Source: Microbacterium lacus (GTDB lineage Bacteria; Actinomycetota; Actinomycetes; Actinomycetales; Microbacteriaceae). From it: a stretch of DNA of 64,000 nucleotides. The DNA lies in contig NZ_BAAAPK010000001.1 in assembly GCF_039531105.1 (NCBI RefSeq), positions 930,001 to 994,000 on the forward strand, given 5' to 3'. Of the stretch, positions 30,372 to 57,106 are shown in pieces (within the stretch, counting starts at the first letter, position 1; the number at the start of each line of letters is the position of its first letter). The position numbers and the translations under genes were made by a program. Under the pieces are notes generated by a model. The model worked only from the letters and a program-made list of their open reading frames with translations, was not told the origin of the DNA and ran no database searches.

Positions 30372-32300
30372 TCAGCGGGCGACGAGCTCGCCGAGGTCGG
30401 CCCGCGCCGCGGCGATGCTCTCCGCGATCGCCCCGGCGATCCGATCGGTCTGCCGGAACGGCAGCGCGTTGGACCCCGGTCGCGTGAAGGCGCCCGCCTC
30501 GGTGAGCGAGGTGAACGGGCCGATCGCGAACAGCGTGGGGTGCGCGGCGCCGGTGGCGTCGATCACCCGGCCGTCGGCATCCACCTCGATGCGCCCGAGC
30601 GAGCCCTCGAACGACGCGTCCGCGACGCGGAACTCCCGTCCGTGGACCGCCGCGAGTTCGCGCAGTGCGCTGTTCTCGCTGACGGCGGCCCCCGAGCCGG
30701 GCAGCCACGCGTCCACGAGGGCACCGGCGACGGTCTCGCCCGGCACGCGCGGGCTCGACGCGACGAACCCGCGGCCGGTCTCCACCCGCACGGTCACGTC
30801 CGGACCCAGGAACCGCACGACGCCGGCCTCGGAGAGCGCGAGGAGCTCCTCGAGCCGGTGGGCGGGCGGACCGCTCGCGACGTAGCTGAAGAACGTGTGC
30901 CACGTGACGGGCAGGCTCTCCGCGCGCGAGCGCGCGCTCCACTTCTCCGGTGGCACGTCCGCGAGAGCGAGGAAGGACAGCAGGATCGCGAGGAAGACCG
31001 CCTGCGCGCTGCTGCGCTCCTGCGTCGTGCGGAGGGTCAGATCATCCGTGATGTGCTGGCGGATGCGGCGCTGCAGGTCATCGTCGGACGAGAACTCCTC
31101 GCCGTCGAGCGGACGGTCGAGGGTCGGGACGTCGAAGCGATCCAGCGGGTCCGGCACGACCTCCGCGACGGCGGCCCGGAGGGCCGCGGTGTCGCCGGCA
31201 TGCGCGCGCAGCACGTCCTGGAACTGTTCCCACGTACCGGCGACCCGCTCGGGGTGCCCCGTGAACAGTTCGCGGTAGTGGCTCCAGACGAGCTCCTGTG
31301 CGATGAGCGGCCAGACGTCCCGCTCGAAGTCGACAGCTTCGGGGCGTGCGACGAGGGCGGCGACCGCCTCCTTCGTCACGACGTGCAGCTGCGGCGGGTC
31401 GCCCTGCAGAACGGACGAGACTTTCGAGCGGTAGGGGATGCCGCGCCGCGAGCCGATGTGCAGGCGGGGCTCGAGCCCGGAGGGTTCGTAGCGCAGCGAG
31501 CCGTCGTCATCGCGGTGGAAGCGACCGCCGCGACCTTCGCCGAGCAGCACGAGCAGGTCGACCGCCGCCAGTCCCATCCCGCGCACGATGACGTCCGCGC
31601 CGGGGGCGAGGGCGGACAGATCGGCGTCGGCGGTGAAAGCGGGGGGTACGTAGGTCAGGCGTTCGCGGGCGGCCTGGGCGATGAGCGCGGCCGTCTCGGC
31701 TGCGGGTTCGCGTCCGTTGTGGCCGACCGCGTAGACGACGACATCGGCATCGAGCTCCAGCCCGTCGACGAGGCGGACGCGGTGCCGTTCCGCTGCTGTC
31801 GCCACGCCGGCGACCGTTCCGGTCAGCCGGTGGACGCGCACGTGCCCCGGAGCCGCATCCACGACCCCGCGCCAGAACCAGTCGAGGTAGTACGACTGCA
31901 GTCGGCGCGTGGGGAAGCTCTCGCCCCGGAGCGTCGCGATCTCGGCGAGGACGGCGGGATCGTCGATCGTCACGTCCTCGAGCCCGCCGTCGCGGACGAG
32001 CTCCGCCCACGCGATGAGCGTGGGTCCCGGCCGGATGGGCCCGTCGATCGTGCAGGTGTCGTCCGTGAACACGGTGACGTCCTGCGCCATCGAATTGAGC
32101 TTGAGCAGCGGCGACTGGTCCGCGCGCCAGATGCGTCCCGCACCGGGCGGGTGCGGATCGATCAGCGTGATCTCCAGCGGCGACTGATCGGTGCGGGCGA
32201 GGAGACGCTCGAGGAGCATGACCGCGCGCGGGCCCGCGCCCACCACGACGAGGCGTGTGGTCTGCGCGGAGTCCCGGGGCGCGGCATCCGTCATCGTCAC
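30372..32300 (-). CDS. FAD/NAD(P)-binding oxidoreductase, last gene of block A minus operon
   Basis: The 642-residue protein opens with the nucleotide motif RLVVVGAGPRAVMLLERLL and continues as the NAD_binding_9 type of flavoprotein (PHPPGAGRIWRADQSPLLKLN), with a second glycine motif near DVIVRGMGLAAVDLLVLLG. It may oxidise a small molecule or feed electrons to the flavin enzymes; no substrate is known for this group. Start GTG 32300 overlaps the stop of the NtaA-type gene (GTGA). It has few sulfur residues for its size: 4 internal Met and 1 Cys. Confidence 0.83.
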   Translation of the reverse strand: MTMTDAAPRDSAQTTRLVVVGAGPRAVMLLERLLARTDQSPLEITLIDPHPPGAGRIWRADQSPLLKLNSMAQDVTVFTDDTCTIDGPIRPGPTLIAWAELVRDGGLEDVTIDDPAVLAEIATLRGESFPTRRLQSYYLDWFWRGVVDAAPGHVRVHRLTGTVAGVATAAERHRVRLVDGLELDADVVVYAVGHNGREPAAETAALIAQAARERLTYVPPAFTADADLSALAPGADVIVRGMGLAAVDLLVLLGEGRGGRFHRDDDGSLRYEPSGLEPRLHIGSRRGIPYRSKVSSVLQGDPPQLHVVTKEAVAALVARPEAVDFERDVWPLIAQELVWSHYRELFTGHPERVAGTWEQFQDVLRAHAGDTAALRAAVAEVVPDPLDRFDVPTLDRPLDGEEFSSDDDLQRRIRQHITDDLTLRTTQERSSAQAVFLAILLSFLALADVPPEKWSARSRAESLPVTWHTFFSYVASGPPAHRLEELLALSEAGVVRFLGPDVTVRVETGRGFVASSPRVPGETVAGALVDAWLPGSGAAVSENSALRELAAVHGREFRVADASFEGSLGRIEVDADGRVIDATGAAHPTLFAIGPFTSLTEAGAFTRPGSNALPFRQTDRIAGAIAESIAAARADLGELVAR

Positions 32301-33664
32301 ACCCCGACTGGTGCCCCGGTGCGCACCGCGGGCAGGCCGAGCAGGTCGTGCAGGGTGGCGCCGTCCTCGTAGGTGTCGCGGTAGGAGCCGCGTTCCTGCA
32401 GGAGCGGCACGACGCGGTCGGTGAATTCATCCAGGCCGTGCGGGGTGAGGTGGCCGACGACCGTGAAGCCGTCCGTCGCGCGCTCCTGCACGTAACGGTC
32501 GATCTCGCCCGCCACGAACTCGGGGGTGCCGACGAACGTGTGGTTGGCCGTGAGCCGGATGATCAGATCGCGGATGCTGAGATTCTCGGCTGCGGCCGTC
32601 TCGCGCAGCTTCGCGATGCGCGCCCGTACTGCGGCGTGCCGGTTCGCGAAGCCCTGGGCGCTCTCCGGGCCGGTGTCGGGCTCGACCTCCGGCAGCGGGC
32701 CGTCGGGGTCGTACCCGCTGAAGTCGCGGTTCCACACCTGCTCGAGGTACGTGATCGCCGTCTCGGGCCGCACCTGGGCCAGGGCGATCTCGCGCGAGCG
32801 CTCGCGGGCCTCCTCGGCGGTGTCGCCGAGCACGAACGTGGCCGCGGGAAGGATCTTGAGCGACTCCTCGTCACGTCCGCGGGCGGCCAGGCGCCCCTTC
32901 ACATCGCGGTAGAAGTCCTGCGCATCCTCGAACTCGGTGTGCAGGGAGAAGATCACATCGGCGTGGTCGGTTGCGAAGTCCCGGCCGTCGGCGGAGTCCC
33001 CGGCCTGCACGATCACCGGGCGTCCCTGCGGCGAGGCGGGCACGTCGAACAGGGCGTCCACGTCGAACAAGCGCGTCTGGTGGCGCACCCGCGCGATGCG
33101 CTCCGCGTCCAGGTAGACGCCGGCATCGGCATCCGCCACGATCGCGTCGTCCTGCCACGACCCCCACAGGGCCTTCGAGATCTCGGCGAACTCCGACGCG
33201 CGGACGTATCGGTCGGCGTGGTCCAGGTACCCGCCGCGCCGGAAGTTCGCGCCGTGGAAGGCATCCGAACTCGTGACCGCGTTCCAGCCGGCTCTTCCAC
33301 CGGACAGATGGTCGATCGTCGCGAGCTGGCGGGCGAGCTCGTACGGCTCGTTGAAGGTCGTGCTGAGCGTGCCGACCAGACCGATGTGCTCGGTGACGGC
33401 GGCGAGGGCGGCGAGCACGGCGAGTGTGTTCGGCCGGCCGAGCACGTCGAGCTCGTGGATCCGCCCGCGATGCTCGCGCAGTCGCAGACCCTCGGCCAGG
33501 AAGAGGTAGTCGAACCGCCCGCGCTCGGCCGTGCGGGCGAAGTACTCGAAGGACGCGAAGTCGATCTGGCTGCCGGCGGTCGGGTCGGTCCAGACCGTGG
33601 TGTTGTTCACACCGGGGAAGTGCGCGGCCAGGTGGATCTGACGCTTCGCGGGATTCAAGCTCAT
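32297..33664 (-). CDS. NtaA/SnaA/DszA family FMN-dependent monooxygenase (block A)
   Basis: The 455-residue luciferase-like enzyme has the NtaA-family pattern: AAHFPGVNNTTVWTDP, RGRFDYLFLAEGL, STTFNEPYELARQLATIDHLSGGRAGWNAVT and SPQGRPVIVQAGDSADGRDFA. Members use reduced FMN and O2 to cleave C-N or C-S bonds (nitrilotriacetate, S-substituted cysteines, dibenzothiophene sulfone). The protein has no Met after the initiator and no Cys. It overlaps both neighbours by 4 bases. The closest paralogue in the window is at 48589-49959, again right after a luciferase-like gene. Confidence 0.9.
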   Translation of the reverse strand: MSLNPAKRQIHLAAHFPGVNNTTVWTDPTAGSQIDFASFEYFARTAERGRFDYLFLAEGLRLREHRGRIHELDVLGRPNTLAVLAALAAVTEHIGLVGTLSTTFNEPYELARQLATIDHLSGGRAGWNAVTSSDAFHGANFRRGGYLDHADRYVRASEFAEISKALWGSWQDDAIVADADAGVYLDAERIARVRHQTRLFDVDALFDVPASPQGRPVIVQAGDSADGRDFATDHADVIFSLHTEFEDAQDFYRDVKGRLAARGRDEESLKILPAATFVLGDTAEEARERSREIALAQVRPETAITYLEQVWNRDFSGYDPDGPLPEVEPDTGPESAQGFANRHAAVRARIAKLRETAAAENLSIRDLIIRLTANHTFVGTPEFVAGEIDRYVQERATDGFTVVGHLTPHGLDEFTDRVVPLLQERGSYRDTYEDGATLHDLLGLPAVRTGAPVGV

Positions 33665-34857
33665 GCCGAAACCTCCGATCGGGTGTGGCGACTTGCGCGA
33701 CGCGGCAGTCCGAGTCGCTCGCGCAGGGTGGGTGCGCCGTCGTCGCCGACGAGCAGCGCGGACGCGCGGGGGAGGACTTCCTCGGCGATCGCGTTGAGGT
33801 CGGCGGGCAGTCGCGCGGGCCGCAGACGGATGCCGTCGACACCTGCCTCGGCGAACGCCCGGATCTCGGCCACCACGTCGTCGGGGGTGCCGACCACGAT
33901 GCGCGCGTCCGTGACGAGGGGCGCGCGGGCTTCGAGTCGATCCCATGCCTCGCGTGCGGCATCCGCGGTGTCTTCGACGAGCACGATCAGATCGACGAAC
34001 ACCCGCAGCGGTTCCGGCTCGGTCCGCACCTGGGCCGCGGCCTCGGCGAGCTCGGCCAGGATCGCGCCGGTCCCGGCAGGATCGGCGGGCGTCACGAACA
34101 CGACGTCGGCGTGCTCGGCGGCGAAGCGGTAGGGGATGCTCTGGTGCGCGAGCGCCGTGACGAGGGGCTGCCCCTGGGGGGAGCGGGGCACGATCGAAGC
34201 GCCGGTGATCGAGAAGAACTCGCCCGAGAAGTCGAGGTTGTGGATGCGGTCGCGGTCGACGAAGCGGCCGGACTCGAGATCGCGGATGATCGCGTCGTCC
34301 TCCCACGAGTCGGCGAGTCCGCGGATCGCCTGGGCGACCTCGCCGGCCTCGCGGAACGCCGCGACGAGCTGCGGATCTTCCTCCACATGGCCCGATTCCG
34401 GCAGGCCGGTGGGTCCGTCCGCGCGGCGTCCGAAGTTCGCCCGCTCGGCCGGCGTCGAGCCCGCGACGAGGCGCACGCCCGCGCGGCCGAGGCTCGCGTG
34501 GTCGAGCGTCTGCAGGCCGGTGGCGACGTGGAACGGCTCGGGGTGGGTCGTGGTGACGGTGGGAACTAGTCCCACGCGCGTGGTCAGCGGAGCCAGGAAC
34601 GACGCGAGAAGCACGGCGTCGAGGCGCCCGCGGACGCGGTCGGTGCGCGGCTCGGGCGCGGTGTCGAAGCGCTCGCCGAGGGCGAGGGCGTCCTCGATCG
34701 TGACGAAGGCGACTCCCGCCTCGTCCGCGGCTCGGACGAGGTCGCGCCAATAGGCTGCGGTCGTCAGAGCTGCGGGCCGAGCGGAGTGCTCACGCCAGGC
34801 GGCCGGGTGCCAACCGGCACCGTCCAGTGCGACGGCGACATGCACGCGATCGGTCAT
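33661..34857 (-). CDS. Luciferase-like flavin-dependent monooxygenase (block A)
   Basis: The 398-residue protein is an LLM-class TIM barrel: AALDGAGWHPAAWREHS-like start, LVPTVTTTHPEPFHVATGL and ITGASIVPRSPQGQPLV, with DADIVFV-type strand ADVVFVTPADPAG. It is the first gene of the minus operon, with GAGGAG before ATG 34857, and overlaps the NtaA-type gene (ATGA). It has no internal Met and no Cys. It is clearly paralogous to 47374-48570 (shared GWHPAAWRE and TVTTTHxEPFH). Probable role: FMNH2-dependent oxygenation of an organosulfur or related compound. Confidence 0.88.
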   Translation of the reverse strand: MTDRVHVAVALDGAGWHPAAWREHSARPAALTTAAYWRDLVRAADEAGVAFVTIEDALALGERFDTAPEPRTDRVRGRLDAVLLASFLAPLTTRVGLVPTVTTTHPEPFHVATGLQTLDHASLGRAGVRLVAGSTPAERANFGRRADGPTGLPESGHVEEDPQLVAAFREAGEVAQAIRGLADSWEDDAIIRDLESGRFVDRDRIHNLDFSGEFFSITGASIVPRSPQGQPLVTALAHQSIPYRFAAEHADVVFVTPADPAGTGAILAELAEAAAQVRTEPEPLRVFVDLIVLVEDTADAAREAWDRLEARAPLVTDARIVVGTPDDVVAEIRAFAEAGVDGIRLRPARLPADLNAIAEEVLPRASALLVGDDGAPTLRERLGLPRRASRHTRSEVSA

Positions 34858-34939: not shown

Positions 34940-35023
34940 GTGACGTCGCGGGGCGTCCGGATCAGGGATCCCCGAGGCGGAATGTGACGTCCCGTGACGG
35001 ATCGCAACGTCGCATGACGTTCG
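34940..35023. promoter_or_regulatory. 10-bp-phased GTGACG array, block A divergent promoter
   Basis: Four 10-nt units follow each other exactly: GTGACGTCCC (34984), GTGACGGATC (34994), GCAACGTCGC (35004), ATGACGTTCG (35014). A lone GTGACGTCGC stands at 34940. Units 3 and 4 also form AACGTC-gcat-GACGTT (35006-35021). The 10-bp period puts all copies on one DNA face. The array lies between the two divergent operons of block A, so it could serve both. Confidence 0.7.
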
Positions 35024-35116: not shown

Positions 35117-36529
35117 ATGACCAGTCCCGTTCTCGCGCCCAGCGCCCTGGATGCCCTCGTCGCGGCACTCCAGGAGCGGCATCCCGAGATCGAGGTGCGG
35201 CCCTCGTCGCCGGCGACGGTGGACTACCTGCACGACGCGGCCACCCGCCTGGCGCCCGCCGGCTCCGCATCCACGATCGGCCCGGCCGTCGCACTCCCGG
35301 CCTCGCCCGAGCACGTGCAGGACCTCGTGCGGATCGCCGCAGAGCACGGTGTGCCCGTCGTGCCGCGTGGCGCCGGCAGCGGGCTCTCCGGCGGCGCGTC
35401 GGCGACCACAGGCGAGCTCGTGATCTCGACGGAGCGGCTGACGCGGATCCTCGAGGTCTCGCCCGAGGACGAAGTCGCGGTGGTCGAGCCCGGCGTCCTG
35501 AACGCCGAGCTGAACGCCCACCTCGCCCCGCTCGGGCTGTTCTACGCGCCCGATCCGGCCAGCTGGCGGATCTCCTCGATCGGGGGGAACATCGCCACGA
35601 ACGCCGGCGGACTGCGCTGCGCGAAATACGGCGTCACCCGCGAGTCGGTGCTTGCGCTGGATGTCGTCCTCGCCGACGGGAGCCTCATCTCGGTCGGGCA
35701 CCGATCGATCAAGGGGGTCACGGGGCTCGACCTCGTGTCGCTGTTCGTCGGATCCGAAGGGGTCCTCGGCATCGTCGTCGCGGCCACCGTCCGCCTCCGG
35801 CCGATTCCGGCCGCACGCCGCACGGTGACCGCGTTCTTCGACTCGACCGCTGAGGGGGCCGCCGCGCTGGCGGCGATCACCGCATCCCGGGTCCGGCCGA
35901 GCATCGTGGAGTTCTTCGACGAGCCGACCCTCGTGAGCATCGACCGGCATTCGCACTCCCGCCTGCGCGAACGCGGTGGCTCGCTCCTGCTGATCGAGCT
36001 CGACGGTTTCGGCATCGCCGAGCAGTTCGCCGAGCTCCGCGACGCGCTCACCGCGGTCGGCGGTCGCGTGCAGGCCGAGACGGATGCCGACGGCGAGGTG
36101 CTGTGGGAACTCCGCCGCTCCGGACGCGGGTTCGACCTGGACAGCTGGTTCTCGGGTGGCGACATCGCCGTGCCGAAGTCGCGGATCCCCGAGGTGTACG
36201 CGTACTTCGCGGTTCTGCAGGAGCGGTACGGCGTCGAGGTCAGCGCGGTCGCCCATGCCGGCGACGGCAATCTGCACCCGCTGATCACGCTGCGGATCCC
36301 GGACGGTGCCGATCCGTCCGCACCCCCGGCCACGCTGCACGACGCCACGGACGACCTCGTCCGCTTCGCTCTGAGCGTCGGCGGCACCGTGAGCGGGGAG
36401 CACGGCATCGGCACGGTCAAGCGAGAGCTCGCGGCCGTCGAACTGTCCCCGCGGACGCTCGCCGCCCAGCACGCCCTCAAGGCGGCGCTGGACCCCACCG
36501 GCCTGTTCAACCCCGGCAAAGCCTTCTGA
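35117..36529 (+). CDS. GlcD-type FAD-linked oxidase (2-hydroxy acid dehydrogenase family)
   Basis: The 470-residue protein has the vanillyl-alcohol-oxidase-type FAD domain: VPRGAGSGLSGGASAT, SSIGGNIATNAGGLRCAKYG, SEGVLGIV, then the C-terminal cap with AHAGDGNLHP and SGEHGIGTVKREL. Such enzymes oxidise glycolate, lactate or other 2-hydroxy acids. It starts the plus-strand operon of block A, which suggests it handles a carbon fragment left after the transported compound is cleaved. It has no internal Met and a single Cys. ATG 35117 has GGAGAGG 11 nt upstream. Confidence 0.87.
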   Translation: MTSPVLAPSALDALVAALQERHPEIEVRPSSPATVDYLHDAATRLAPAGSASTIGPAVALPASPEHVQDLVRIAAEHGVPVVPRGAGSGLSGGASATTGELVISTERLTRILEVSPEDEVAVVEPGVLNAELNAHLAPLGLFYAPDPASWRISSIGGNIATNAGGLRCAKYGVTRESVLALDVVLADGSLISVGHRSIKGVTGLDLVSLFVGSEGVLGIVVAATVRLRPIPAARRTVTAFFDSTAEGAAALAAITASRVRPSIVEFFDEPTLVSIDRHSHSRLRERGGSLLLIELDGFGIAEQFAELRDALTAVGGRVQAETDADGEVLWELRRSGRGFDLDSWFSGGDIAVPKSRIPEVYAYFAVLQERYGVEVSAVAHAGDGNLHPLITLRIPDGADPSAPPATLHDATDDLVRFALSVGGTVSGEHGIGTVKRELAAVELSPRTLAAQHALKAALDPTGLFNPGKAF

Positions 36530-36569: not shown

Positions 36570-38231
36570 ATGTCCACACAGCACCGCACCCGAGGGCGAC
36601 GCGCCCTCCTGACCGGCATCGGCCTGATCGCCGGCGTCGCACTCATCGCCGGCTGCGCCTCCGGCGGCACCGCACCTGCCGCCGACGAGAGCGCCGCGCC
36701 CACGGAGGGCGGCGACATCACGTTCCTGATCGATTCGCTCGGCGCCACCTGGATCCCCAACAACAGCTCGATCTCGAGCTACCAGGGGCACATCTGGGGA
36801 CACGTCACCGACAAGCTCATCTATGTCGACGCGGAGGGCAACCTGAGCCCGTGGGTCGCGGAGAGCTGGGAGGAGAGCGAGGACAAGACCGAGTTCACGA
36901 TCAACCTCAAGGACGGCGTCACCTTCTCGGACGGCACGCCGCTCGATGCCGCGGCGGTCGTCGCGAACATCGACATCTGGGCGAAGGGCCGCCCCGACGA
37001 GGGCATCAACCGCATCGGGCTGTTCCCCGCCGCCAATTACGACCGGGCCGAGGCCGTGGACGAGACCACGGTCAAGGTGTACTTCACCGCGCCGACGCTG
37101 AGCTTCATCCCCACGCTCGCCTACCACGGCTCGATCCTGCTGTCGCCGGAGACCCTCGCGCTGCCGGCCGATCAGCAGGCCGACCTGTCCAATGACATCG
37201 GCAGCGGGCCGTTCGTGGTGGAGTCGTGGGCCGAGGGCGACAGTGTCGTGCTCACCAAGCGCGACGACTACGACTGGGGTCCGGAGGCGCTGAACCACGA
37301 CGGCGCGGCGTACCTCGACTCGATCACGTACAAGCAGGTCGCCGAGCCGACCCTGCGGACGTCGTCCGTGCAGTCCGGCCAGGCCGACGTCGCCTACAAC
37401 GCGAGCCCGCAGGAGCTGGATCCGCTCAAGGACGAGGGCTTCGAGATCGCGGTGCCCCGCTATCTCGGCTTCGTGAACGGGTACGCGCTGAACACCACGG
37501 TCGCACCCTTCGACGACCCGCTCGTCCGGCAGGCCGTCCAGCACGGCATCGACCGCGACGAGATCCTGTCCACGGTCTACACGAGCGACTGGCAGGCGGC
37601 GGAGTCGTTCATCCAGAGCAACGTTCCCGAGGCGACCGATCACAGCGACCAGTTCGCGTTCGACCCCGACCAGGCCGCCGATCTGCTCGACGAGGCCGGG
37701 TGGGTCGAGGGCGCGGACGGCGTCCGCACGAAGGACGGGCAGGAACTCGCGTTCACGCTGTACCCGAACCCGTACCTGGCCACCTCGCAGGCCGTCGACG
37801 AGCTCGTCGCGCAGCAGCTGTCCGACCTGGGCTTCGCCGTGACCCTCGAGGCCTACGATGTGCCGACGTACGGGCAGAAGGTCATCGGCAATGCCGCGAT
37901 CCCCGCGAACGAGATCACGCGCAGCTTCGTCGACGTCGGAACCGTCGCCGGTGTCCTCACGAGCCAGAAGAAGGGCGACGAGGACTGGTTCAAGGTCGGC
38001 ACGAGCGACCAGACGCTCAACGACCTCTCCAACCAGATCGCCACGGCGACCGATCGTGACGACCGCGCCGCCGTCGCCGACGAGCTGCAGGAGTACGTGC
38101 TCGCGCAGGCGTACTTCGTTCCGCTCACGCAGATCGTGCAGCGCGTGTACGTGCAGAACCCCGCCCTCGAGGGCGTCACGTACAACGGCCTGGCCTACGC
38201 GTACTACCTCGACGCGTACCTGACCGAGTGA
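36570..38231 (+). CDS. Oligopeptide-type ABC transporter substrate-binding lipoprotein
   Basis: The 553-residue protein is an SBP_bac_5 member with a lipoprotein signal: RRALLTGIGLIAGVALIAGC, lipidated Cys29. Mature-part landmarks are SWEESEDKTEFTINLKDGVTF, GSGPFVVESW and AVQHGIDRDEIL. Family ligands are peptides, nickel, opines or other polar organics. Apart from the start Met and the lipobox Cys I find no Met or Cys in the whole protein, which is exceptional at this length. AAGGAGA 8 nt before the ATG. It leads a complete Dpp-like ABC set (36570-41864). Confidence 0.93.
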   Translation: MSTQHRTRGRRALLTGIGLIAGVALIAGCASGGTAPAADESAAPTEGGDITFLIDSLGATWIPNNSSISSYQGHIWGHVTDKLIYVDAEGNLSPWVAESWEESEDKTEFTINLKDGVTFSDGTPLDAAAVVANIDIWAKGRPDEGINRIGLFPAANYDRAEAVDETTVKVYFTAPTLSFIPTLAYHGSILLSPETLALPADQQADLSNDIGSGPFVVESWAEGDSVVLTKRDDYDWGPEALNHDGAAYLDSITYKQVAEPTLRTSSVQSGQADVAYNASPQELDPLKDEGFEIAVPRYLGFVNGYALNTTVAPFDDPLVRQAVQHGIDRDEILSTVYTSDWQAAESFIQSNVPEATDHSDQFAFDPDQAADLLDEAGWVEGADGVRTKDGQELAFTLYPNPYLATSQAVDELVAQQLSDLGFAVTLEAYDVPTYGQKVIGNAAIPANEITRSFVDVGTVAGVLTSQKKGDEDWFKVGTSDQTLNDLSNQIATATDRDDRAAVADELQEYVLAQAYFVPLTQIVQRVYVQNPALEGVTYNGLAYAYYLDAYLTE

Positions 38232-44556: not shown

Positions 44557-44610
44557 AAAGTCACCGCCACCCACCGACATCGCCGCTGGCCGACAGGTAC
44601 CCTTCGCCGC

Positions 44611-44790: not shown

Positions 44791-44815
44791 GGGGCGCGGG
44801 CGGCGGGCGGCAGCC

Positions 44816-48570: not shown

Positions 48571-48588
48571 CCCACTCAGGAGCAGACG

Positions 48589-49969: not shown

Positions 49970-50806
49970 ATGACCGACACGCTCAGCACGGCGACGATCG
50001 ACCGGGCGGACTTCGGCCGCGGCTGGGAGGCCTGGCATCGTGAACATGAGGCCCGCCGGGCGGACCCGCACGGCTTCCTCGCGATCACCGGCCTGCACTG
50101 GCTCACCGCCGCGCCGCAACTCATCCCCGGCGTTCCGGGCGCGTGGTCCACGGGCCCGGAGGGCCCGGTGGTGGCCCTCACCGACGACGATGTGCTGACC
50201 TTCGACGGTGAGGTGCTGCGCGGCATCCATACGTTCGGGGAGATCCCCGAGCGCGGGGGACTCACGGTCGCCTACGACGGCGGTGTGGCCGAAGTGGCCA
50301 AGCGCGGCGGGCACGACATCGTCCGTCCCCGCAGGCCGGATCACCCGTTCCTCGCCGCGTACGACGGTACGCCGGTCTATGCGCCTCACCCGCAGTGGCG
50401 TGTTCCGGCGCGTTTCGTCGAGTATGCGACGCCGCGTCGCACCGAAGTCGGTGCCGCGGTGGACGGGCTGACGCACGTTTACGAGTCGCCCGGGTACGTG
50501 GAGTTCACGCTGCGGGGGGAGACCCACCGGCTCATCGCGTTCGAGGGATACGCGCCGGGCGAGCTCGTCGTGCTGTTCACCGACGAGACGAGCGGGCGGA
50601 CCACCTACGCCGCGAATCGGACGGTCGGCGTGCCGGCCCCGGACGCCGACGGCGGGACGGTGATCGACTTCACGCGCGCCGTCAACCTTCCCTGCGCCTA
50701 CACCGACTTCGCGACCTGCCCCCTCCCGCCGGCCGGGAACCACCTGCCGATCGCCGTGGAAGCGGGGGAGAAGACGCCGCTCGCGCGGGTGCACGCCACC
50801 CTCTGA
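49970..50806 (+). CDS. DUF1684 domain protein
   Basis: The 278-residue protein matches DUF1684: WHREHEARRADPHGFLAITGLHWL at the start, FVEYATPRR and, near the end, INLPCAYTDFATCPLPPAGNHLP-type NLPCAYTDFATCPLPPAGN with two Cys and likely His/Asn ligands. Function is unknown. It sits 10 nt after the NtaA-type gene with GAGGGGG upstream, so it is part of the operon. No internal Met. No signal peptide. Confidence 0.82.
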   Translation: MTDTLSTATIDRADFGRGWEAWHREHEARRADPHGFLAITGLHWLTAAPQLIPGVPGAWSTGPEGPVVALTDDDVLTFDGEVLRGIHTFGEIPERGGLTVAYDGGVAEVAKRGGHDIVRPRRPDHPFLAAYDGTPVYAPHPQWRVPARFVEYATPRRTEVGAAVDGLTHVYESPGYVEFTLRGETHRLIAFEGYAPGELVVLFTDETSGRTTYAANRTVGVPAPDADGGTVIDFTRAVNLPCAYTDFATCPLPPAGNHLPIAVEAGEKTPLARVHATL

Positions 50807-50809
50807 CGA

Positions 50810-50855
50810 GGGGTGCCACCTCGTTACGCGGTGTTGCTCGCCCCGCGGGCACCCC
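50810..50855 (+). terminator. Inverted repeat after the DUF1684 gene
   Basis: GGGGTGCC (50810-50817) and GGCACCCC (50848-50855) are perfect arms just after the stop. It may attenuate transcription between DUF1684 and the GNAT gene, which has its own promoter-like box. Confidence 0.45.
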
Positions 50856-50880: not shown

Positions 50881-51426
50881 ATGTCGGGTGCAGACGCGCC
50901 GGCGGTCCCCTCCGCGGAGTGGCTCGTCGAGCAGGTGGAGTGGACCGATCCGCGTGCGCACGCGCTGCGTGACGCGATGGACGCCGAGATCGGACCCCGG
51001 TACGCGGGCAGGCTCGACGACGTGCCGCAGGACGTCGCGGAACGGATCGGGGCGGCGCTGTCCGTCGCGCCGGAGACGATCGTCGCGACGGTGATCGTGA
51101 CGAATGCCGAGGGCGAAGCCGTCGGTCACGCCGCGCTCCGCGACCTCGGCGCGGAATTCGCGGGGTCGCTCGAGGTCAAGCGGGTGTACGTCGCTCCGGA
51201 CGCCCGGGGCAGCGGCGTGAGCCGTCTGCTGATGGCGGAACTCGAGCGGATCGCCGCCGACCTCGGCGCGCAGCGGCTGATCCTGCAGACCGGAGACCGC
51301 CAGCCCGAAGCCGTCGCCCTGTACGAGCGGATCGGCTACACGCGCATCCCGATCTATCCGCCGTACCTCGAGATCGCCTTCTCGCAGTGCTTCGAGAAGC
51401 CGGTCGCCCGGAGGGCCGCCGCATGA
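50881..51426 (+). CDS. GNAT family N-acetyltransferase (block B)
   Basis: The 181-residue protein has the GNAT signature: LEVKRVYVAPDARGSGVSRLLM (acetyl-CoA loop) and LQTGDRQPEAVALYERIGY. In Bacillus, organosulfur operons (ytm/yxe types) pair an NtaA-family monooxygenase with an acetyltransferase that N-acetylates S-substituted cysteines before oxidation; that role is plausible here but is inferred from context. Two internal Met, one Cys. The stop overlaps the oxidase start (ATGA). Confidence 0.85.
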   Translation: MSGADAPAVPSAEWLVEQVEWTDPRAHALRDAMDAEIGPRYAGRLDDVPQDVAERIGAALSVAPETIVATVIVTNAEGEAVGHAALRDLGAEFAGSLEVKRVYVAPDARGSGVSRLLMAELERIAADLGAQRLILQTGDRQPEAVALYERIGYTRIPIYPPYLEIAFSQCFEKPVARRAAA

Positions 51427-52526
51427 GCGACACCGCCGAGGTGGTCGTCGTCGGCGGCGGTGCGATGGGGGCGGCATCCGCGTGGCAGCTCGCCCGCCGC
51501 GGCGTCGACGTCACGCTCCTCGAGCAGTTCGAGCCGGGCCACCGGCACGGCGCGTCGCACGGCGCGTCCCGCAACTTCAATCTCAGCTACGAGGATCCGG
51601 GGCTCCTGGCCTGGCTGCATGAAGCCGACGGGCTGTGGCAGGAGCTCGAGGCCGAGACCGGTTCCGAGCTGCTGACCCGCACCGGGATCATCAACCACGG
51701 TCCGGGCCGCGACCAGAACCGTGCCGTGCAGGCGCTGCGGGACGGCGGCTTCGACGTCGAGCATCTGGACGCGCGCGAGGCGGCCGATCGCTGGCCCGGC
51801 TTCCGCTTCGCCGGTCCGGTCTTCCACACCCCGCAGGCGGGCCGTCTGCACGCAGACCGGGCCGTCGCGGCGCTCGGCTCGGCGGCGGCGGTGCGCGGCG
51901 CGCGGATCCGCCATCAGACGGCGGTGCTGGACGGGTCGGCCGGCGACGACGGCGTCCGGGTGCGCGTGCGGACCGCGGACGGGAGCGAGGATACGATCCG
52001 CGCACGACGCGCGATCATCACGGCCGGGGCATGGACGACGGATGTCCTCACCGCGCTCGGCATCGAGGCGTCCCTGCCGCCGCTGCGAGTCACGCAGGAG
52101 CAGCCGGCGTTCTTCGCGCCGCGCGACGGGTCGACCGCGTGGCCGGGATTCAACCACACCCCTGCGGCCGACGATGCCGCCACCGCGTGGTTCCCGAGCG
52201 GTGTGTACGGCATGGGCTCGCCGGGGGAGGGCATCAAGGCCGGCTGGCACGGGGTCGGACCCGAGACCCACCCCGATCGCCGCACCTACGTTCCCGACCC
52301 AGGCCTGTCGGACGCGATCGTCCGGTACGCGCGGGAGTGGCTCCCGGGGGTGGATTCCGCCGCGTTCTCCGAGATCACGTGCACGTACACCTCGACCCCG
52401 GACTCCGCGTTCGTCCTGGAGCGGATCGGACCGGTCGCCCTCGGCGCCGGCTTCTCGGGTCACGGGTTCAAGTTCACGCCGGTGATCGGTCGCGTGCTGG
52501 CGGACTTGGTCGTCGACCCGCGCTGA
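51423..52526 (+). CDS. FAD-dependent amine oxidase, sarcosine/N-methyl-amino-acid oxidase type
   Basis: The 367-residue flavoprotein has the DAO/MSOX plan: VVVGGGAMGAASAWQLARRG, RHGASHGASRNFNLSYE, and the C-terminal GAGFSGHGFKFTPVIGRVLADL. The cysteine in EITCTYTSTPDSAFV sits where monomeric sarcosine oxidase holds its covalent FAD. It oxidises a secondary or primary amine to an imine, releasing peroxide. Coupled to the acetyltransferase. Two internal Met; the only Cys is the flavin-linking one. Confidence 0.88.
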   Translation: MSDTAEVVVVGGGAMGAASAWQLARRGVDVTLLEQFEPGHRHGASHGASRNFNLSYEDPGLLAWLHEADGLWQELEAETGSELLTRTGIINHGPGRDQNRAVQALRDGGFDVEHLDAREAADRWPGFRFAGPVFHTPQAGRLHADRAVAALGSAAAVRGARIRHQTAVLDGSAGDDGVRVRVRTADGSEDTIRARRAIITAGAWTTDVLTALGIEASLPPLRVTQEQPAFFAPRDGSTAWPGFNHTPAADDAATAWFPSGVYGMGSPGEGIKAGWHGVGPETHPDRRTYVPDPGLSDAIVRYAREWLPGVDSAAFSEITCTYTSTPDSAFVLERIGPVALGAGFSGHGFKFTPVIGRVLADLVVDPR

Positions 52527-52591: not shown

Positions 52592-53593
52592 TCACGGCTT
52601 GGGCAGCCCGGGCGGGTTGACCAGCGACTCGGTGACGCCCTCGGACTCCAGGCCCCAGAACTCGAGCAGCTCGGTGTAGGTGCCGTCCTCGATGATCTTG
52701 TTGAGCACGATGCTGACCGGTTCGATCAGGCCGTTGCCCTTCGCGGTGCCGGCCGCGATGTTCGCGGTGTCGGGCCAGCCGCCGGGCACGATGCCGACGA
52801 GCTTCGTGTCACCGGTCTCCAGCGCCGCCCAGGCGGCAGTCGCGTTCGGGCCGAAGTTGGCGTCGGCGCGACCCGACTGCAGCGCGAGCGTGGCCGCGGC
52901 GGTGTCGTCGTAGTACTGCAGCTCGGCGGGTGCCTTGCCGTCCGCTTCGAGTTCCTCGTTCCAGCGCAGGAGGACCTGCTCTTGGTTCGTCCCCGAACCG
53001 ACGATGATCTTCAGGCCCGAGATGTCGGCGGCCTCGCTGATCGAGTCGATGTCGCTGTCGGCTTTGACGTAGAAGCCCAGGAGGTCCTCGCGGTAGCTCG
53101 CGAAGTCGTAGAGCTCCTTGCGCTCCTCCGTGACCGTGACGTTGGAGGTGATCAGGTCGTACTTGCCCGACTGGATGCCCAGCGGCCAGTCCGCCCACGC
53201 CACGACCTGCGGGTTGTACTCGAGGCCGAGTCCCTCCGCGATCAGCAGGCCGATGTTCGGTTCGGTGCCGGCGACGTCGGTCGCGGCGGACGTGCCGTCG
53301 GGCTGGTAGCTCAGCGGCGGGACGAACGCCCCGACCGCGACGGTGAGCTTGCCCTCTTCGATCGGCTCGAATCCGCTCGCCTTCAGGGCTTCGACGGCCT
53401 CGGGAACGGGGTCGGTGTGGAACCACTCGATCTCGCCGGTCGCGGTGTTCGTCTCGGTCGGCTTCGGGCTGGATGCCGCGGCCTCGGCCGCGCCGCCGTT
53501 CAGATTCACGGCGGCGAACACGCCGCCGACGATCGCGGCCACCGCGACGACGCCGACGCCGATCGCGATGCCCTGCTTCTTGCTGATTGCCAT
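52592..53593 (-). CDS. Polar amino acid ABC transporter substrate-binding protein, no lipobox
   Basis: The 333-residue protein is an SBP_bac_3 member: KLTVAVGAFVPPLSY, AEGLGLEYNPQVVAWADWPLGIQSGKYDLITSN-type region (VAWADWPLGIQSGKYDL) and SGLKIIVGSGTNQEQVL. It binds a polar amino acid or derivative. Gram-positive binding proteins are normally lipoproteins, but this one has no Cys at all: the N-terminus QGIAIGVGVVAVAAIVGGVF is a single hydrophobic helix that would anchor or direct secretion. No Met after the start. Third gene of the minus operon, 46 nt after the ATPase. Confidence 0.9.
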   Translation of the reverse strand: MAISKKQGIAIGVGVVAVAAIVGGVFAAVNLNGGAAEAAASSPKPTETNTATGEIEWFHTDPVPEAVEALKASGFEPIEEGKLTVAVGAFVPPLSYQPDGTSAATDVAGTEPNIGLLIAEGLGLEYNPQVVAWADWPLGIQSGKYDLITSNVTVTEERKELYDFASYREDLLGFYVKADSDIDSISEAADISGLKIIVGSGTNQEQVLLRWNEELEADGKAPAELQYYDDTAAATLALQSGRADANFGPNATAAWAALETGDTKLVGIVPGGWPDTANIAAGTAKGNGLIEPVSIVLNKIIEDGTYTELLEFWGLESEGVTESLVNPPGLPKP

Positions 53594-53639: not shown

Positions 53640-54440
53640 TCAGGCCAGAACCTTGGCGAGGAACTCCCGCGTGCGCGGGTGCTCCGGGTTCGTGAGGACC
53701 TTCTCGGGGGATCCGTCCTCGATCACGTGACCGCCGTCGATGAAGACGACGCGGTCGGCGACTTCGCGGGCGAAGCCGATCTCGTGGGTCACGATGATGA
53801 GGGTTGTGCCGCCGCGGGCGAGATCGCGGATCACGTCCAGCACTTCGCCGACGAGCTCGGGGTCCAGCGCACTCGTGGGCTCGTCGAACAGCAGCACCTT
53901 GGGGTTCAGAGCGAGGGCGCGCGCGATCGCGACGCGCTGCTGCTGGCCGCCGGACAGCTGTCGCGGGTAGTGCTCCGCCTTGTCGGTGAGGCCGACCCGC
54001 TCCAGCAGCGACAGGGCGAGCTCGCGCGCGGCATCCTTGCTGAGCACGCCGAGGTCGACGGGCGCCTCGGTGATGTTCTCCAGCGCGGTGAGGTGCGGGA
54101 AGAGGTTGAAGTTCTGGAAGACGATGCCGATCTGCGTGCGCCGCTTCAGGATCTCCTTCTCGCGCAGCTCGTAGAGCTTGTCTCCCCGCCGCTCGTAGCC
54201 GATCAGCTGCCCGTCGACCGTGACCGATCCGCGATCGACGGACTCGAGGTGGTTGATCGTGCGCAGCAGCGTCGACTTTCCCGAGCCGCTCGGCCCCAGG
54301 ATCGCGACGACCTCGCCGGGCGCGATCGTGAGGTCGATCCCGGAGAGCACCTCGACCCCCGCGTAGGACTTGTGGACGTTGTGGATCTCGACGAGTCCCG
54401 TCGTCGTGATCCGCGGAGCGGCAGCGGTGTGCGTGCTCAT
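53640..54440 (-). CDS. Polar amino acid ABC transporter ATPase, Met-free
   Basis: The 266-residue ATPase is a GlnQ-type protein: Walker A GPSGSGKST, QNFNLFPHLTALEN, signature LSGGQQQRVAIARALAL, Walker B VLLFDEPTSALDPE, H-loop THEIGFAREVAD. Positions that are usually Met in this family hold other residues: ALALNPKVLLF for ALAMxPKVMLF, VTHEIGFA for VTHEMGFA, FPHLT for FPHMT. No internal Met and no Cys. Start ATG 54440 has GAGGAG upstream and overlaps the permease stop (ATGA). Confidence 0.95.
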   Translation of the reverse strand: MSTHTAAAPRITTTGLVEIHNVHKSYAGVEVLSGIDLTIAPGEVVAILGPSGSGKSTLLRTINHLESVDRGSVTVDGQLIGYERRGDKLYELREKEILKRRTQIGIVFQNFNLFPHLTALENITEAPVDLGVLSKDAARELALSLLERVGLTDKAEHYPRQLSGGQQQRVAIARALALNPKVLLFDEPTSALDPELVGEVLDVIRDLARGGTTLIIVTHEIGFAREVADRVVFIDGGHVIEDGSPEKVLTNPEHPRTREFLAKVLA

Positions 54441-55510
54441 CGGGTCTCCTCGTTCGCGTCGATGGCGGCATCCGGCCGGACGGGAAGGTCGGCGGATACG
54501 GGTTCCCGCGGAGGTGCCTTCGCGCCGTCTTCGCCCAGGCGCGCCCACTGCACCGCGGTCCACCGGCGGAACCGCTGCAGGGGAGTCGGCGGCAGCGTGC
54601 GGACAGATCCCCGGGCGTAGTACCGCTCGATGTAGTACTGCGCGATGCTCAGGATCGTGGTGATGATCGTGTACCAGACCACCGCCACGAGCAGGAGCGG
54701 GATCACGCGGCTGTTGCGGTTGTAGATCACCTGGACCGCGTAGAACAGCTCCGGGATCGCGATCACGAACACCACCGAGGCGCCCTTGACGAGGCCGATC
54801 ACCTCGTTCGTCGCGTTCGGGATGATCGAGCGCATCGCCTGCGGGAGGATGATGCGGAATAGTCGCTTGCGGGCCGGGATGCCGAGCGCGGCAGCCGCTT
54901 CGTGCTGGCCCTGGTCCACGGAGATCAGGCCGCCGCGGATGATCTCCGCCGAGTAGGCAGCCTGGTGCAGACCGAGCCCCAGGATCGCCGCCGCAAAGGC
55001 GCTGATGAGCTGGACGGTCGGGAACTCCACGATCCAGAAGTCGGTCGTGAACGGCGTCCCGAGCCCGAGCGTCGGGTAGAGGTAGCCGAGGTTGTACCAG
55101 ACGATGATCTGCACCACGAGCGGCACCGAGCGGAAGAACCAGATGTACGCCCAGGAGATCGAGTTGAGCAGCGTCGACTTCGACAGCCGGCCCAGCGCCA
55201 GCACCGTTCCGAGGATGAAGCCGATGGATGCCGAGATCGCGGTGAGCGAGAGCGTGTAGCCGATGCCGATCAGGACGGGCTCGGAGAAGAAGTACGACGC
55301 GAAGACGTTCCACTCGTAGTTCTCGTTCGTGAACAGCGACCACACGAACTGCGCGATCGCGAAGATCAGGATCGCGCTGAGCACCCACCGGAACCAGTGG
55401 CGGGTGTGGACGACGCGCACGTCGCCGAGGTCGACGCGTTCGGCCCGCGCCGGTGGGCCGCCCTGTTCCGGCGCGGATACCGCGACGGGCGCTGTGGTGA
55501 TCGTGCTCAT
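54437..55510 (-). CDS. Polar amino acid ABC transporter permease
   Basis: The 357-residue HisM/GlnP-type permease has about five to six helices, with FFRSVPLVVQIIVWYNLG, the inner-loop AYSAEIIRGGLISVDQGQHEAAAALGIPA (EAA region) and PQAMRSIIPNATNEVIGLVKG. N- and C-terminal tails are long and polar. One internal Met and no Cys. First gene of the minus operon with AGAGGAA before ATG 55510. It completes the importer with 53640-54440 and 52592-53593. Confidence 0.92.
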   Translation of the reverse strand: MSTITTAPVAVSAPEQGGPPARAERVDLGDVRVVHTRHWFRWVLSAILIFAIAQFVWSLFTNENYEWNVFASYFFSEPVLIGIGYTLSLTAISASIGFILGTVLALGRLSKSTLLNSISWAYIWFFRSVPLVVQIIVWYNLGYLYPTLGLGTPFTTDFWIVEFPTVQLISAFAAAILGLGLHQAAYSAEIIRGGLISVDQGQHEAAAALGIPARKRLFRIILPQAMRSIIPNATNEVIGLVKGASVVFVIAIPELFYAVQVIYNRNSRVIPLLLVAVVWYTIITTILSIAQYYIERYYARGSVRTLPPTPLQRFRRWTAVQWARLGEDGAKAPPREPVSADLPVRPDAAIDANEETR

Positions 55511-55593: not shown

Positions 55594-55633
55594 GCGTCAT
55601 CACATGACGCAATGACCGGTCATCGGCCGTAAC
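55594..55633. promoter_or_regulatory. Palindromes GCGTCAT-N3-ATGACGC and ATGACCGGTCAT
   Basis: GCGTCAT-cac-ATGACGC (55594-55610) and the perfect 12-mer ATGACCGGTCAT (55612-55623) lie upstream of the permease operon. On the minus strand, GTTACG (55633) and ATGACC (55623) are 10 nt apart and two weaker copies follow at the same step. This ties the site to the TGAC-type arrays of the monooxygenase operons. Confidence 0.55.
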
Positions 55634-55744: not shown

Positions 55745-56599
55745 ATGCCCCTGCTCATCGACGCTCACGAACTCGCGTCCGAGATCGATTCGGGGCGTCC
55801 TGTGCGCCTGCTCGATGTGCGGTGGAGACTGAATGCGCCGGAGGGGCGACCCGCCTACGTCGCGGGGCACCTGCCCGGCGCCGTCTACGTCGACCTCGAG
55901 CGCGAGCTCGCCGAGACCGGGCACCCCGAGATCGGTCGGTATCCCCTCCCGGCTCTGGCGGACCTGCAGCACTCCGCCCGGCGCTGGGGGGTGAACGACG
56001 GCGACCTGGTCGTCGTCTACGACGACAACGATGCGGTCGCGGCCGCGCGGGCGTGGTGGCTGCTGCGGAGCCGCGGCGTGGACATCCGGGTGCTGGACGG
56101 CGGCATCCGCGCCTGGGTCGGTGCGGGCTTCCCGGTGCAACGCGGAGATGTCCTGCCGAAGCGTGGTGACATCACTCTGAGGGACGCCGACCCCGGTGTC
56201 GCGACGATCGACGACGCCGCCCGGGCCCCCGGCGAGGGCCATCTGATCGACGTCCGCGCACCCGAGCACTATCGCGGACTCGCCGCCGGCACCGAAGCCG
56301 CCGCGGGGCACATCCCCGGCGCCCTGAACATCCCCACCGTCGCGCACATCGCGCGCGACGGCACGCTGCGCGCGCCCGCGGAGATCCGGGCGACCATCGA
56401 GGCGGCATCCGTCGACCCCGACGCGCCGATCGTCCTCTACTGCAGCACGGGGATCGCTTCGGCGCACTCGGCGCTCGCTTTCGCGACCGCGGGGATCGAT
56501 GCGCGCCTGTTCATCGGCTCATGGAGCCAGTGGTCGCTCGCGCCGAACCGGCCCGTCGCGGTCGGGCCGACGCCGACGGGAGTCCTGCAGGGCTGGTGA
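55745..56599 (+). CDS. Thiosulfate/mercaptopyruvate sulfurtransferase (tandem rhodanese)
   Basis: The 284-residue protein has two rhodanese domains. The first is inactive (DNDAVAAARAWW), the second has the active-site loop VLYCSTGIASAHSALA with the persulfide cysteine. It moves sulfur from thiosulfate or 3-mercaptopyruvate to an acceptor. That Cys is the only one in the protein, and there is no internal Met. It lies beside the organosulfur-type transporter and an FMN reductase, supporting a sulfur-assimilation role for the region. Confidence 0.92.
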   Translation: MPLLIDAHELASEIDSGRPVRLLDVRWRLNAPEGRPAYVAGHLPGAVYVDLERELAETGHPEIGRYPLPALADLQHSARRWGVNDGDLVVVYDDNDAVAAARAWWLLRSRGVDIRVLDGGIRAWVGAGFPVQRGDVLPKRGDITLRDADPGVATIDDAARAPGEGHLIDVRAPEHYRGLAAGTEAAAGHIPGALNIPTVAHIARDGTLRAPAEIRATIEAASVDPDAPIVLYCSTGIASAHSALAFATAGIDARLFIGSWSQWSLAPNRPVAVGPTPTGVLQGW

Positions 56600-56608
56600 G
56601 TCGCGGGC

Positions 56609-57106
56609 TCAGCGCGCCTGCAGGTACGGCCACTGCCCGTCGAGCCACTCCGCGATGATCCGGGCGCGCTCGTCGGATTCGGACGCCGGGAACGCGAGCC
56701 CCCGCGTCGGGACGGAGGCCCCGAGTTCGACGAGCAGGGGGCGCAGGGTGTGCTCGACGGCGAGCGTGTGCGCGGGGCTGCCGATCGTCAGGATCGGCAC
56801 GGCTGTCACGGACGCCAGCCCATTCGTCGGATAGCGGTCGAGGAACGCCTTGAGCAGCCCGGTGTAGCTGGCCTTGTAGGTCGGGCTCGCCACGATCAGC
56901 AGGTCTGCGCCGGCGACGCGGCCCAGCAGCTCGTCGATGCGCGGTGCGGGGAAGCGGAAGAGCTCGTCCGCCACGTCGGCGAGGTCGATCGTCGGGTGCA
57001 CCGTCGCGTCGCTGCGTCGAGCGAGCTGCGCGGCGAGTTCTTCCGCGATGAGACGCGTGCGCGACTGAGGCTGCGGGTTGCCGACGAGGACGACGATCGA
57101 GGACAT
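56609..57106 (-). CDS. NAD(P)H-dependent FMN reductase (SsuE/MsuE type)
   Basis: The 165-residue flavodoxin-like protein has VVLVGNPQPQSRTRLIAEEL, the FMN-binding VASPTYKASYTGLLKAFLDRYP and SPAHTLAVEHTLRPLLVELGA, as in SsuE/MsuE. These enzymes supply FMNH2 to two-component monooxygenases; this is the only candidate reductase in the window for the five luciferase-like enzymes. No internal Met, no Cys. AGGAG 6 nt before ATG 57106. It is convergent with the rhodanese gene. Confidence 0.92.
   Translation of the reverse strand: MSSIVVLVGNPQPQSRTRLIAEELAAQLARRSDATVHPTIDLADVADELFRFPAPRIDELLGRVAGADLLIVASPTYKASYTGLLKAFLDRYPTNGLASVTAVPILTIGSPAHTLAVEHTLRPLLVELGASVPTRGLAFPASESDERARIIAEWLDGQWPYLQAR

Follow-up and report, generated by a model that had tools for sequence, protein, structure and literature searches.

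The window analysed here is a 64,000-nucleotide stretch of the Microbacterium lacus genome (C1:930001-994000; the genome comprises 3.54 Mb in 8 contigs and is 99.99% complete). Positions 30372-57106 of this window hold an island of flavin monooxygenases, transporters and further enzymes whose proteins are nearly free of methionine (Met) and cysteine (Cys), and which, judged from its gene families, probably scavenges sulfur from organic compounds. Gene calling, repeated independently, gives 23 genes in this interval. They are listed below; genes are named by their start coordinate, and Met counts refer to internal Met.

30372..32294, minus strand: flavin adenine dinucleotide (FAD)/NAD(P)-binding protein (Pfam NAD_binding_9), 640 amino acids (aa), 3 Met, 1 Cys
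32297..33664, minus strand: NtaA/DmoA-family flavin mononucleotide (FMN) monooxygenase, 0 Met, 0 Cys (TIGR03860, 427.5 bits against a cut-off of 279.7)
33661..34857, minus strand: partner NtaA-like monooxygenase adjoining 32297, 398 aa from ATG (corrected start), 0 Met, 0 Cys (TIGR03860, 217 bits, below cut-off)
35117..36529, plus strand: GlcD-like FAD-linked 2-hydroxyacid oxidase, 0 Met, 1 Cys
36570..38231, plus strand: peptide/nickel-type substrate-binding lipoprotein, 0 Met, the sole Cys being that of the lipobox (nearest TIGR04028, 339 bits against a cut-off of 468.5)
38306..39322, plus strand: ABC permease (Opp/Nik type), 2 Met
39319..40167, plus strand: ABC permease (Opp/Nik type), 2 Met
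40191..41864, plus strand: fused double ABC ATPase (DppD-DppF type), 1 Met
41884..43086, plus strand: pyridoxal phosphate (PLP) aminotransferase without a helix-turn-helix part, 0 Met, 0 Cys (nearest solved structure, 2-aminoadipate transaminase)
43214..44551, minus strand: DUF222-HNH gene, probable intruder, 10 Met, 6 Cys
44816..45520, minus strand: GNAT acetyltransferase, found in 10 Microbacterium island loci, little depleted (1.3%)
45736..46089, plus strand: AhpD-like protein with CVYC, 0 Met, no array upstream (TIGR00778, 54.8 bits against a cut-off of 27.8)
46218..47273, plus strand: luciferase-like monooxygenase near TIGR04027/TIGR03558 (below both cut-offs), 1 Met
47374..48570, plus strand: NtaA-like monooxygenase adjoining its larger partner 48589, 0 Met, 0 Cys
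48589..49959, plus strand: NtaA-family monooxygenase, 0 Met, 0 Cys (closest solved structure YtnJ/MoxC, E about 1e-96)
49970..50806, plus strand: DUF1684 protein, 0 Met, 2 Cys
50881..51426, plus strand: GNAT acetyltransferase, 2 Met, 1 Cys, not depleted
51423..52526, plus strand: sarcosine-oxidase-like (SoxA-like) flavoenzyme, 2 Met, 1 Cys
52592..53593, minus strand: binding protein of the amino-acid/cystine type, with a hydrophobic segment at its N-terminus and the lipobox Cys absent, 0 Met, 0 Cys
53640..54440, minus strand: GlnQ/TcyN-type ABC ATPase, 0 Met, 0 Cys
54437..55510, minus strand: amino-acid ABC permease, 1 Met
55745..56599, plus strand: 3-mercaptopyruvate-sulfurtransferase-like rhodanese (below cut-off), 0 Met, 1 Cys
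56609..57106, minus strand: SsuE-like FMN reductase, 0 Met, 0 Cys, no array upstream (TIGR03567, 105 bits against a cut-off of 164)

How far do these proteins depart from the proteome of their own genome? A preliminary description of this DNA, which left out the HNH gene 43214-44551 and the GNAT gene 44816-45520, had counted about 15 internal Met and 10 Cys in the remaining 21 proteins; for the same set our gene calls give exactly 15 and 10. They stand in 7,639 internal residues, for which the rate in 701 sampled genes of the same genome predicts 146.6 Met+Cys. With the corrected start of 33661 and a larger baseline (1,378 genes from eighty 20-kb stretches, 1.6 Mb and 453,963 residues in all, with 1.937% Met+Cys), 24 Met+Cys in 7,625 residues compare with 147.7 expected, a difference with a binomial p of 6e-37 that ignores between-gene variance. 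Resampling of 21 proteins from 633 baseline proteins of at least 110 aa (a second low-sulfur locus, L105, removed) never gave less than 0.86% Met or 0.20% Cys in 2,000 draws; the island has 0.18% Met (z -6.5) and 0.13% Cys (z -3.1), and the remaining 18 amino acids all fall within |z| 2. The lowest of 980 baseline runs of six genes contains 0.53% Met+Cys, and island runs reach 0.27%. Among proteins of at least 150 aa, Met+Cys is at most 0.3% in 37 of 1,166 sampled proteins versus 13 of 20 in the island, and internal Met is absent from 47 of 1,166 versus 12 of 20. These twelve, to which the AhpD-like protein 45736 may be added as a shorter one without internal Met, bear out the eleven large or medium proteins named earlier. 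Met+Cys in the island thus lies far under that of the organism's own proteome while other residues are unchanged, which is the pattern that sulfur sparing calls for.

The depletion is a property of the reading frame. Relative to a baseline again taken without L105, ATG occurs at 0.13 in frame, 0.96 in frame 1, 0.37 in frame 2 and 0.81 antisense; for Cys codons the corresponding values are 0.28, 1.01, 0.90 and 1.01. Loss of Met and Cys codons is therefore found mainly in the coding frame, which indicates that selection acts on the protein. The HNH gene, with 3.6% Met+Cys in the same DNA, can be used as an internal control. Even the initiator Met may be spared: a small second residue usually permits its removal by methionine aminopeptidase and its reuse, and A, G, S, T, P or C stands in second place in 20 of the 21 island proteins versus 396 of 633 in the baseline (p 0.001; with Val counted as small too, 417 of 633 in the baseline, p 0.004). 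Most initiator Met could accordingly be removed as well.

Is this composition maintained in relatives? Relatives of 48589 are found in a Microbacterium metagenome-assembled genome (99% identity) and in M. oxydans (89%). The monooxygenase pair was counted in 22 Microbacterium genomes, our own included (loci L163-L184, matches at E <= 1e-140, best locus per genome): its 44 proteins contain 3 Met+Cys in 18,786 residues, and in 17 of the 22 genomes the larger member is just 51-59% identical to 48589. Weaker NtaA-family matches, left out of this count, occur at E <= 1e-40 in 81 of 119 Microbacterium genomes; in the more distant pairs that were gene-called (L185-L192), neighbouring NtaA-like proteins have 0-7 Met+Cys, with 3-7 per protein in L185 and L186. 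Across 26 Microbacterium loci, mean Met+Cys is 0.03% in the larger pair member (28 members), 0.05% in the smaller (30) and 0.05% in the ATPase (14), and all 14 members of the 52592 family are without Met or Cys; the means are 0.5-0.8% in the permeases, 0.89% in the 30372-type FAD/NAD(P) protein (15 members), 1.0% in the SoxA-like protein and 1.3-1.9% in the GNATs. The purge is strongest in the monooxygenases, the binding protein and the ATPase and weakest in the permeases and GNATs, the order that would be expected if the pressure scaled with protein abundance. Comparisons outside the genus skipped loci of at most 64% G+C (26/80). In Streptomyces, Saccharopolyspora, mycobacterial, Nocardioides and Brachybacterium loci the monooxygenases are low too, and most neighbours are ordinary. 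A contig labelled Stenotrophomonas maltophilia (L028), with a protein 77% identical to 48589, groups inside Microbacterium and is probably contamination.

The binding protein 52592 had been described as having dropped its lipobox Cys, and its N-terminus confirms this. Twelve Microbacterium members of the family share an N-terminal KKQG, after which come a hydrophobic stretch and a linker rich in Ala and Pro, an arrangement that resembles an uncleaved membrane anchor. The Brachybacterium homologues carry a lipobox (LAAC) in 4 of 4 cases, and the second binding protein of the island, 36570, retains its lipobox Cys. A further earlier claim, that Met positions of GlnQ-type ATPases hold Ile or Leu here, was not borne out: in an alignment with 22 ABC-ATPase paralogues from the same genome, no column is Met or Cys in at least 30% of sequences.

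The promoters of the island share a second feature. Read by eye from promoters of the island and of relatives, the motif consists of TKAC words every 10 bp; its units are direct repeats with the consensus (G/A)TGACG followed by G/C-rich positions. Arrays were scored over four units at 10 bp (maximum 16), and the window contains the following.

34985..35018, plus strand: operator-like array, 14/16, between 33661 and 35117
46102..46135, plus strand: operator-like array, 16/16, upstream of 46218
47251..47284, plus strand: operator-like array, 16/16, upstream of 47374, overlapping the end of 46218
50804..50837, plus strand: operator-like array, 14/16, upstream of 50881
55599..55632, minus strand: operator-like array, 14/16, between 54437 and 55745

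At a score of at least 14 there are thus 5 arrays in the island versus 0 in 1.6 Mb of the same genome. Since window arrays helped to define the motif, only two sets of loci are fresh tests. The first comprises 18 loci from 14 other Microbacterium genomes, picked by their monooxygenase and not by the motif: arrays scoring at least 13 are intergenic in 25 of 25 cases, and those scoring at least 14 in 11 of 11, in DNA that is 12% intergenic. Control periods of 8, 9, 11, 12 and 13 bp yield 1-10 arrays in these loci, at most 2 of them intergenic. Of 24 arrays with a nearby gene start, 23 stand before a gene whose Met+Cys is under 1%, a figure that says little because the median of the 289 genes there is 0.84%. 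Inverted-repeat operators and single 8-mers gave nothing convincing in the promoter comparison, and the footprint read from a single promoter was unclear. By eye, many promoters of the 33661-type pair (L169-L184) also show a -35-like TTGNNN with CACAGTGG/GACAGTG about 17 bp downstream. No evident DNA-binding protein was seen, again by eye, among the families present in at least 4 of 26 loci, and no further regulator search was made.

The second set of loci concerns sulfate assimilation. The M. lacus genome has no match to PF01507 (CysD/CysH; 14 of 14 control genomes positive) and none to PF01077 (NIR_SIR, sulfite reductase; 11 of 14 control genomes positive). PF01507 is found in 47 of 119 Microbacterium genomes, nearly always twice, as CysD plus CysH would give, and 46 of these 47 have a strong match of the sulfite-reductase type. 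Genome G010 has a sulfite-reductase-type match without PF01507, and G013 a weak PF01507 match without sulfite reductase. Ten cys loci (200 kb) were taken from the 47 positive genomes, 6 with and 4 without the monooxygenase pair, chosen without regard to the array motif. They contain 11 arrays scoring at least 13, all intergenic. In 9 of the 10 loci the intergenic region immediately preceding cysI holds an array, at a distance of 33-92 bp from the called start of that gene, and these 9 include 3 of the 4 genomes chosen without the pair. The other two arrays lie before the ABC binding protein of the operon (L254) and elsewhere (L260). The presence of the array before cysI in sulfate-assimilating Microbacterium ties the island to sulfur control. 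The Cys proteins of these loci are poor in Met as well, with 0.26% in CysI and 0.23% in CysN against 1.03% in the other genes, but Cys is retained in CysI (0.92%) and CysH (2.43%).

Are there other genes of this kind in the genome? The preliminary description had raised the possibility of many unrelated, equally low loci. The 1.6-Mb sample contains no cluster like the island; low genes occur there scattered. Only one other low cluster has a plain relation to sulfur. It lies at C1:673172-676916 (L105:13172-16916), encodes the O-acetylhomoserine sulfhydrylase MetY, an NtaA-type monooxygenase and a divergent protein of 350 aa, each with 1 Met and 0 Cys, and fits sulfur sparing. Among the scattered genes are one for a 337-aa protein with 0 Met and 0 Cys (L209:4553-5566, C1:1424553-1425566) and, at L207:7099-9678, neighbouring genes for a binding lipoprotein (0 Met, 1 Cys) and a 308-aa protein (0 Met, 0 Cys).

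Some features of the island stand apart from its composition. The NtaA-type monooxygenases form two adjacent pairs, at 47374-49959 and 32297-34857. In comparison with PDB entry 7e36, 48589 matches chain B better and 47374 chain A, which suggests that the pair may form a heterodimer. Short repeats, direct as well as inverted (GAGATGGTGGGTTTCC-like), occupy 264 bp upstream of the DUF222-HNH gene (within 43214-44815); gene and repeats together are probably a mobile intruder. A tRNA-Met gene (anticodon CAT, minus strand) at 57280-57355 marks the island edge, possibly as an integration site, possibly by chance. Rfam at its gathering threshold gave no match within 28000-60000.

What, then, is the island for? 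We consider it very probable that it is a regulon for scavenging organosulfur, and that Met and Cys were purged from its abundant proteins because their synthesis has to take place when sulfur is short. The lack of CysD/CysH and sulfite-reductase matches suggests that the sulfur source is reduced organosulfur, for example S-alkylcysteines, and that a thiol or cysteine, not sulfite, would be the product of use to the cell. In the scheme that we propose, a putative sulfur regulator would bind the array head to tail, and the two ABC transporters would import cystine-like and peptide-like conjugates. The GNATs might N-acetylate these, as an optional step. The SsuE-like reductase would feed FMNH2 to the flavin monooxygenases, which would oxidise the substrate and cut its C-S bond as CmoO/CmoJ do, and the AhpD-like and rhodanese proteins may handle sulfenic and sulfane sulfur.

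Parts of this scheme have counterparts elsewhere. Removal of Met and Cys has reportedly occurred in cyanobacterial light-harvesting proteins and in low-sulfur proteins of Pseudomonas putida under sulfur limitation, the same adaptation in other proteins and lineages than the island. In Rhodococcus qingshengii IGTS8, induced sulfur-acquisition proteins are low in Met and Cys (MetY with 0 Cys and 1 Met), and an NtaA-type protein ('ScmK'), a TcyC/TcyA-like (cystine-type) ABC transporter and SoxA (sarcosine oxidase) rise when sulfate is replaced by dibenzothiophene (PMC8557817). The likeness to the window lies in the families of the NtaA-type, cystine-type ABC and sarcosine-oxidase proteins, not in established orthology; and in the parts of that report available to us selected proteins were counted, whereas Microbacterium offers a contiguous near-zero island, a comparison with paralogues and across 22 genomes, and a shared array. 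Up-regulated oxygenases of Gordonia sp. NB4-1Y average 0.88-1.33% Met+Cys versus 3.01% in the proteome (PMC7661421), a milder depletion than in the Microbacterium island, and the available parts of that paper describe no Gordonia island or operator. In Corynebacterium glutamicum, CysR and SsuR control the transcription of sulfur genes through inverted repeats with A/T-rich arms (TGAAtnnAAt) (PMC2580772). The Microbacterium array differs from these ROK-family sites, as far as the accessible text defines them, in consisting of G+C-rich direct repeats every 10 bp.

In Bacillus subtilis, S-alkylcysteines are salvaged by a CmoO/CmoJ route, and CmoJ is termed a homologue of YxeK and DszA (PMC10863075). 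With this route, as the available parts of the report present it, and with the ytmI-ytnM operon, the window has in common a GNAT, a cystine-type ABC transporter and luciferase-like and NtaA-type monooxygenases. The N-acetyltransferase step of salvage has two GNATs as family matches in the window, 50881 and 44816. For the remaining steps we take CmoJ to be YtnJ/MoxC, the MsnO8-type monooxygenase to be CmoO-like, and the deacetylase to be of the M20 type. A candidate for the CmoJ-type enzyme is an NtaA-family monooxygenase above the TIGR03860 cut-off, with YtnJ/MoxC as closest solved structure. No MsnO8-type enzyme is encoded in the window's island, where 46218 reaches 54.7 bits and the cut-off is 166.95; the relatives L022, L030, L032 and L095 pass it. 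An M20 deacylase is likewise absent from the window's island and present in 7 relative loci; L022 carries both. An M20 hydrolase elsewhere in the M. lacus genome (a 45% homologue) was considered as a regulon member and rejected, as it is not depleted and has no array. Beyond S-alkylcysteine salvage the window has the doubled monooxygenase pair, an extra peptide-type ABC transporter, the GlcD-like oxidase and the DUF1684 protein.

A number of observations weigh against this interpretation. Not every gene is depleted: there is no depletion in GNAT 50881 (1.67%) or in the AhpD-like protein 45736 (1.72%, from its CxxC), and only a mild one in the SoxA-like and FAD/NAD(P) proteins. Several family assignments score below curated cut-offs. 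Some paralogues from the same genome are low too. Met+Cys is 0.34% in the one rhodanese paralogue sampled, on a level with 55745; it is 0.2-2.1% across six SBP_bac_5 paralogues of 36570, and about 0.7, 0.7, 1.0 and 4.5% in four SBP_bac_3 paralogues of 52592. As for the array, at a score of 13 the own-genome sample holds 12, of which 4 are intergenic; at least 3 of the 5 window arrays belonged to the sequences that defined the motif; and promoters within one genus are partly orthologous, so that the arrays are not independent events. No array is found upstream of the window genes 45736 or 56609, in the second low-sulfur locus L105 or in cys locus L257, and among 8 relatives scanned L025, L030 and L036 have none scoring at least 13. 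Finally, the pair shows no preference for genomes without PF01507, which is present in 7 of 22 carriers and in 47 of 119 genomes overall. Missing sulfate reduction was therefore rejected as the driver of the island, there being no association. The five genomes with the closest 48589 (at least 75%) all lack PF01507, too few to weigh.

Could the island instead serve the use of sulfonates or sulfate esters, like Ssu or Seu, and release sulfite? The SsuE-like reductase and the luciferase-like monooxygenases speak for it. We nevertheless regard this as unlikely, as the SsuD models score only 46-51 bits against cut-offs of 510 and 518, so that no SsuD equivalog is recognised, and as the genome has no NIR_SIR match, so that sulfite should not be reducible by known enzymes.

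A second alternative accepts the depletion and gives it another cause: peroxide leaking from flavin monooxygenases, and the reactive sulfur species that these enzymes form, would oxidise Met and Cys, which would be avoided for that reason and not for saving sulfur. Many island proteins are indeed flavoenzymes. Transporter parts and PLP enzymes (41884, and MetY in L105) are purged equally, however, and 16 other luciferase-like flavoenzymes of the same genome as well as the non-actinobacterial NtaA homologues are normal, which makes this explanation decidedly improbable.

Still less probable is an effect of family, export or lineage, in which these families would simply be poor in Met and Cys. 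The rhodanese paralogue at 0.34%, the SBP_bac_5 paralogues at 0.2-2.1% and some secreted proteins with none speak for it. Against it, the cytoplasmic monooxygenases, the ATPase and the GlcD-like oxidase contain far less Met and Cys than paralogues encoded in the same genome. The luciferase family has 24 matches there, 5 in the island, 1 in the second sulfur locus and 18 elsewhere; all 16 examined of these 18 carry 3-8 Met. The ABC-ATPase paralogues (n=19) have 0.96-3.43% versus 0 in 53640, and the two GlcD-like paralogues 0.92 and 4.25% versus 0.21% in 35117. The preliminary description had also allowed for orthologues being equally low in all genera; NtaA-family relatives in Actinobacteria are low, but the 44-45 non-actinobacterial NtaA-type homologues (mostly 34-43% identity) are normal, with 1.3-5.4% Met+Cys. 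In a tree of 136 NtaA-type proteins (restricted to homologues of 330-520 aa) the sulfur-poor label changes 7 times versus 40 in shuffles, a number to which near-copies contribute, and sulfur-poor proteins of this type thus fall into few groups. The depletion therefore appears not to be inherited from the family in the monooxygenases, the ATPase and the GlcD-like oxidase. Independence from the family does not hold for the rhodanese, with its one paralogue, and is doubtful for the two binding proteins. For 30372, 49970, 50881, 51423 and 54437, the homologue comparison contained no paralogue or outside homologue except actinobacterial island relatives.

A bias of the local DNA, whether due to its base composition, to avoidance of ATG or to foreign DNA acquired recently, can be set aside almost entirely: frame-2 ATG is down to 0.37 too, but there ATG is a rare word (0.14% in the baseline) and AAG/AAA (0.38) and TGG (0.60) fall with it, whereas G+C is like the rest, frame 1 and antisense are near normal, 18 amino acids are normal and the HNH gene has 3.6%. 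A composition or ATG-avoidance artefact was rejected on the frame test.

The sulfur-sparing island that the preliminary description had proposed is therefore supported, with the qualifications that the principle was already in print for Actinobacteria and that some island genes are not depleted. Already known is sulfur sparing in Rhodococcus and Gordonia; new are its extent and the array. Among open-licence PubMed Central papers we found no report of a comparably depleted island or of the array, and nothing on sulfur auxotrophy in Microbacterium, on TGACG direct repeats and sulfur in Actinobacteria, or on sulfur-poor operons. A bolder version of this reading, to which we would give an even chance, is that an undescribed global sulfur regulator acts on head-to-tail RTGACG units one helical turn apart; that its regulon selects against its own sulfur so strongly that the lipid anchor of 52592 became a membrane helix, saving one Cys; and that species without sulfate and sulfite reduction obtain all their sulfur through this regulon, from reduced organosulfur.

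What does this mean for the sulfur biology of Microbacterium? In the reports cited here, sulfur sparing shows as a bias among the induced proteins listed; in the island it is near absolute over co-located operons, in many species, and graded by protein type, and could serve as a homology-free marker for sulfur-starvation genes. The phased array is a regulatory handle that links organosulfur genes with those of sulfate reduction and should lead to the regulator. The absence of matches for sulfate and sulfite reduction from the M. lacus genome, in turn, leads to a clear prediction on which sulfur sources this organism can use.

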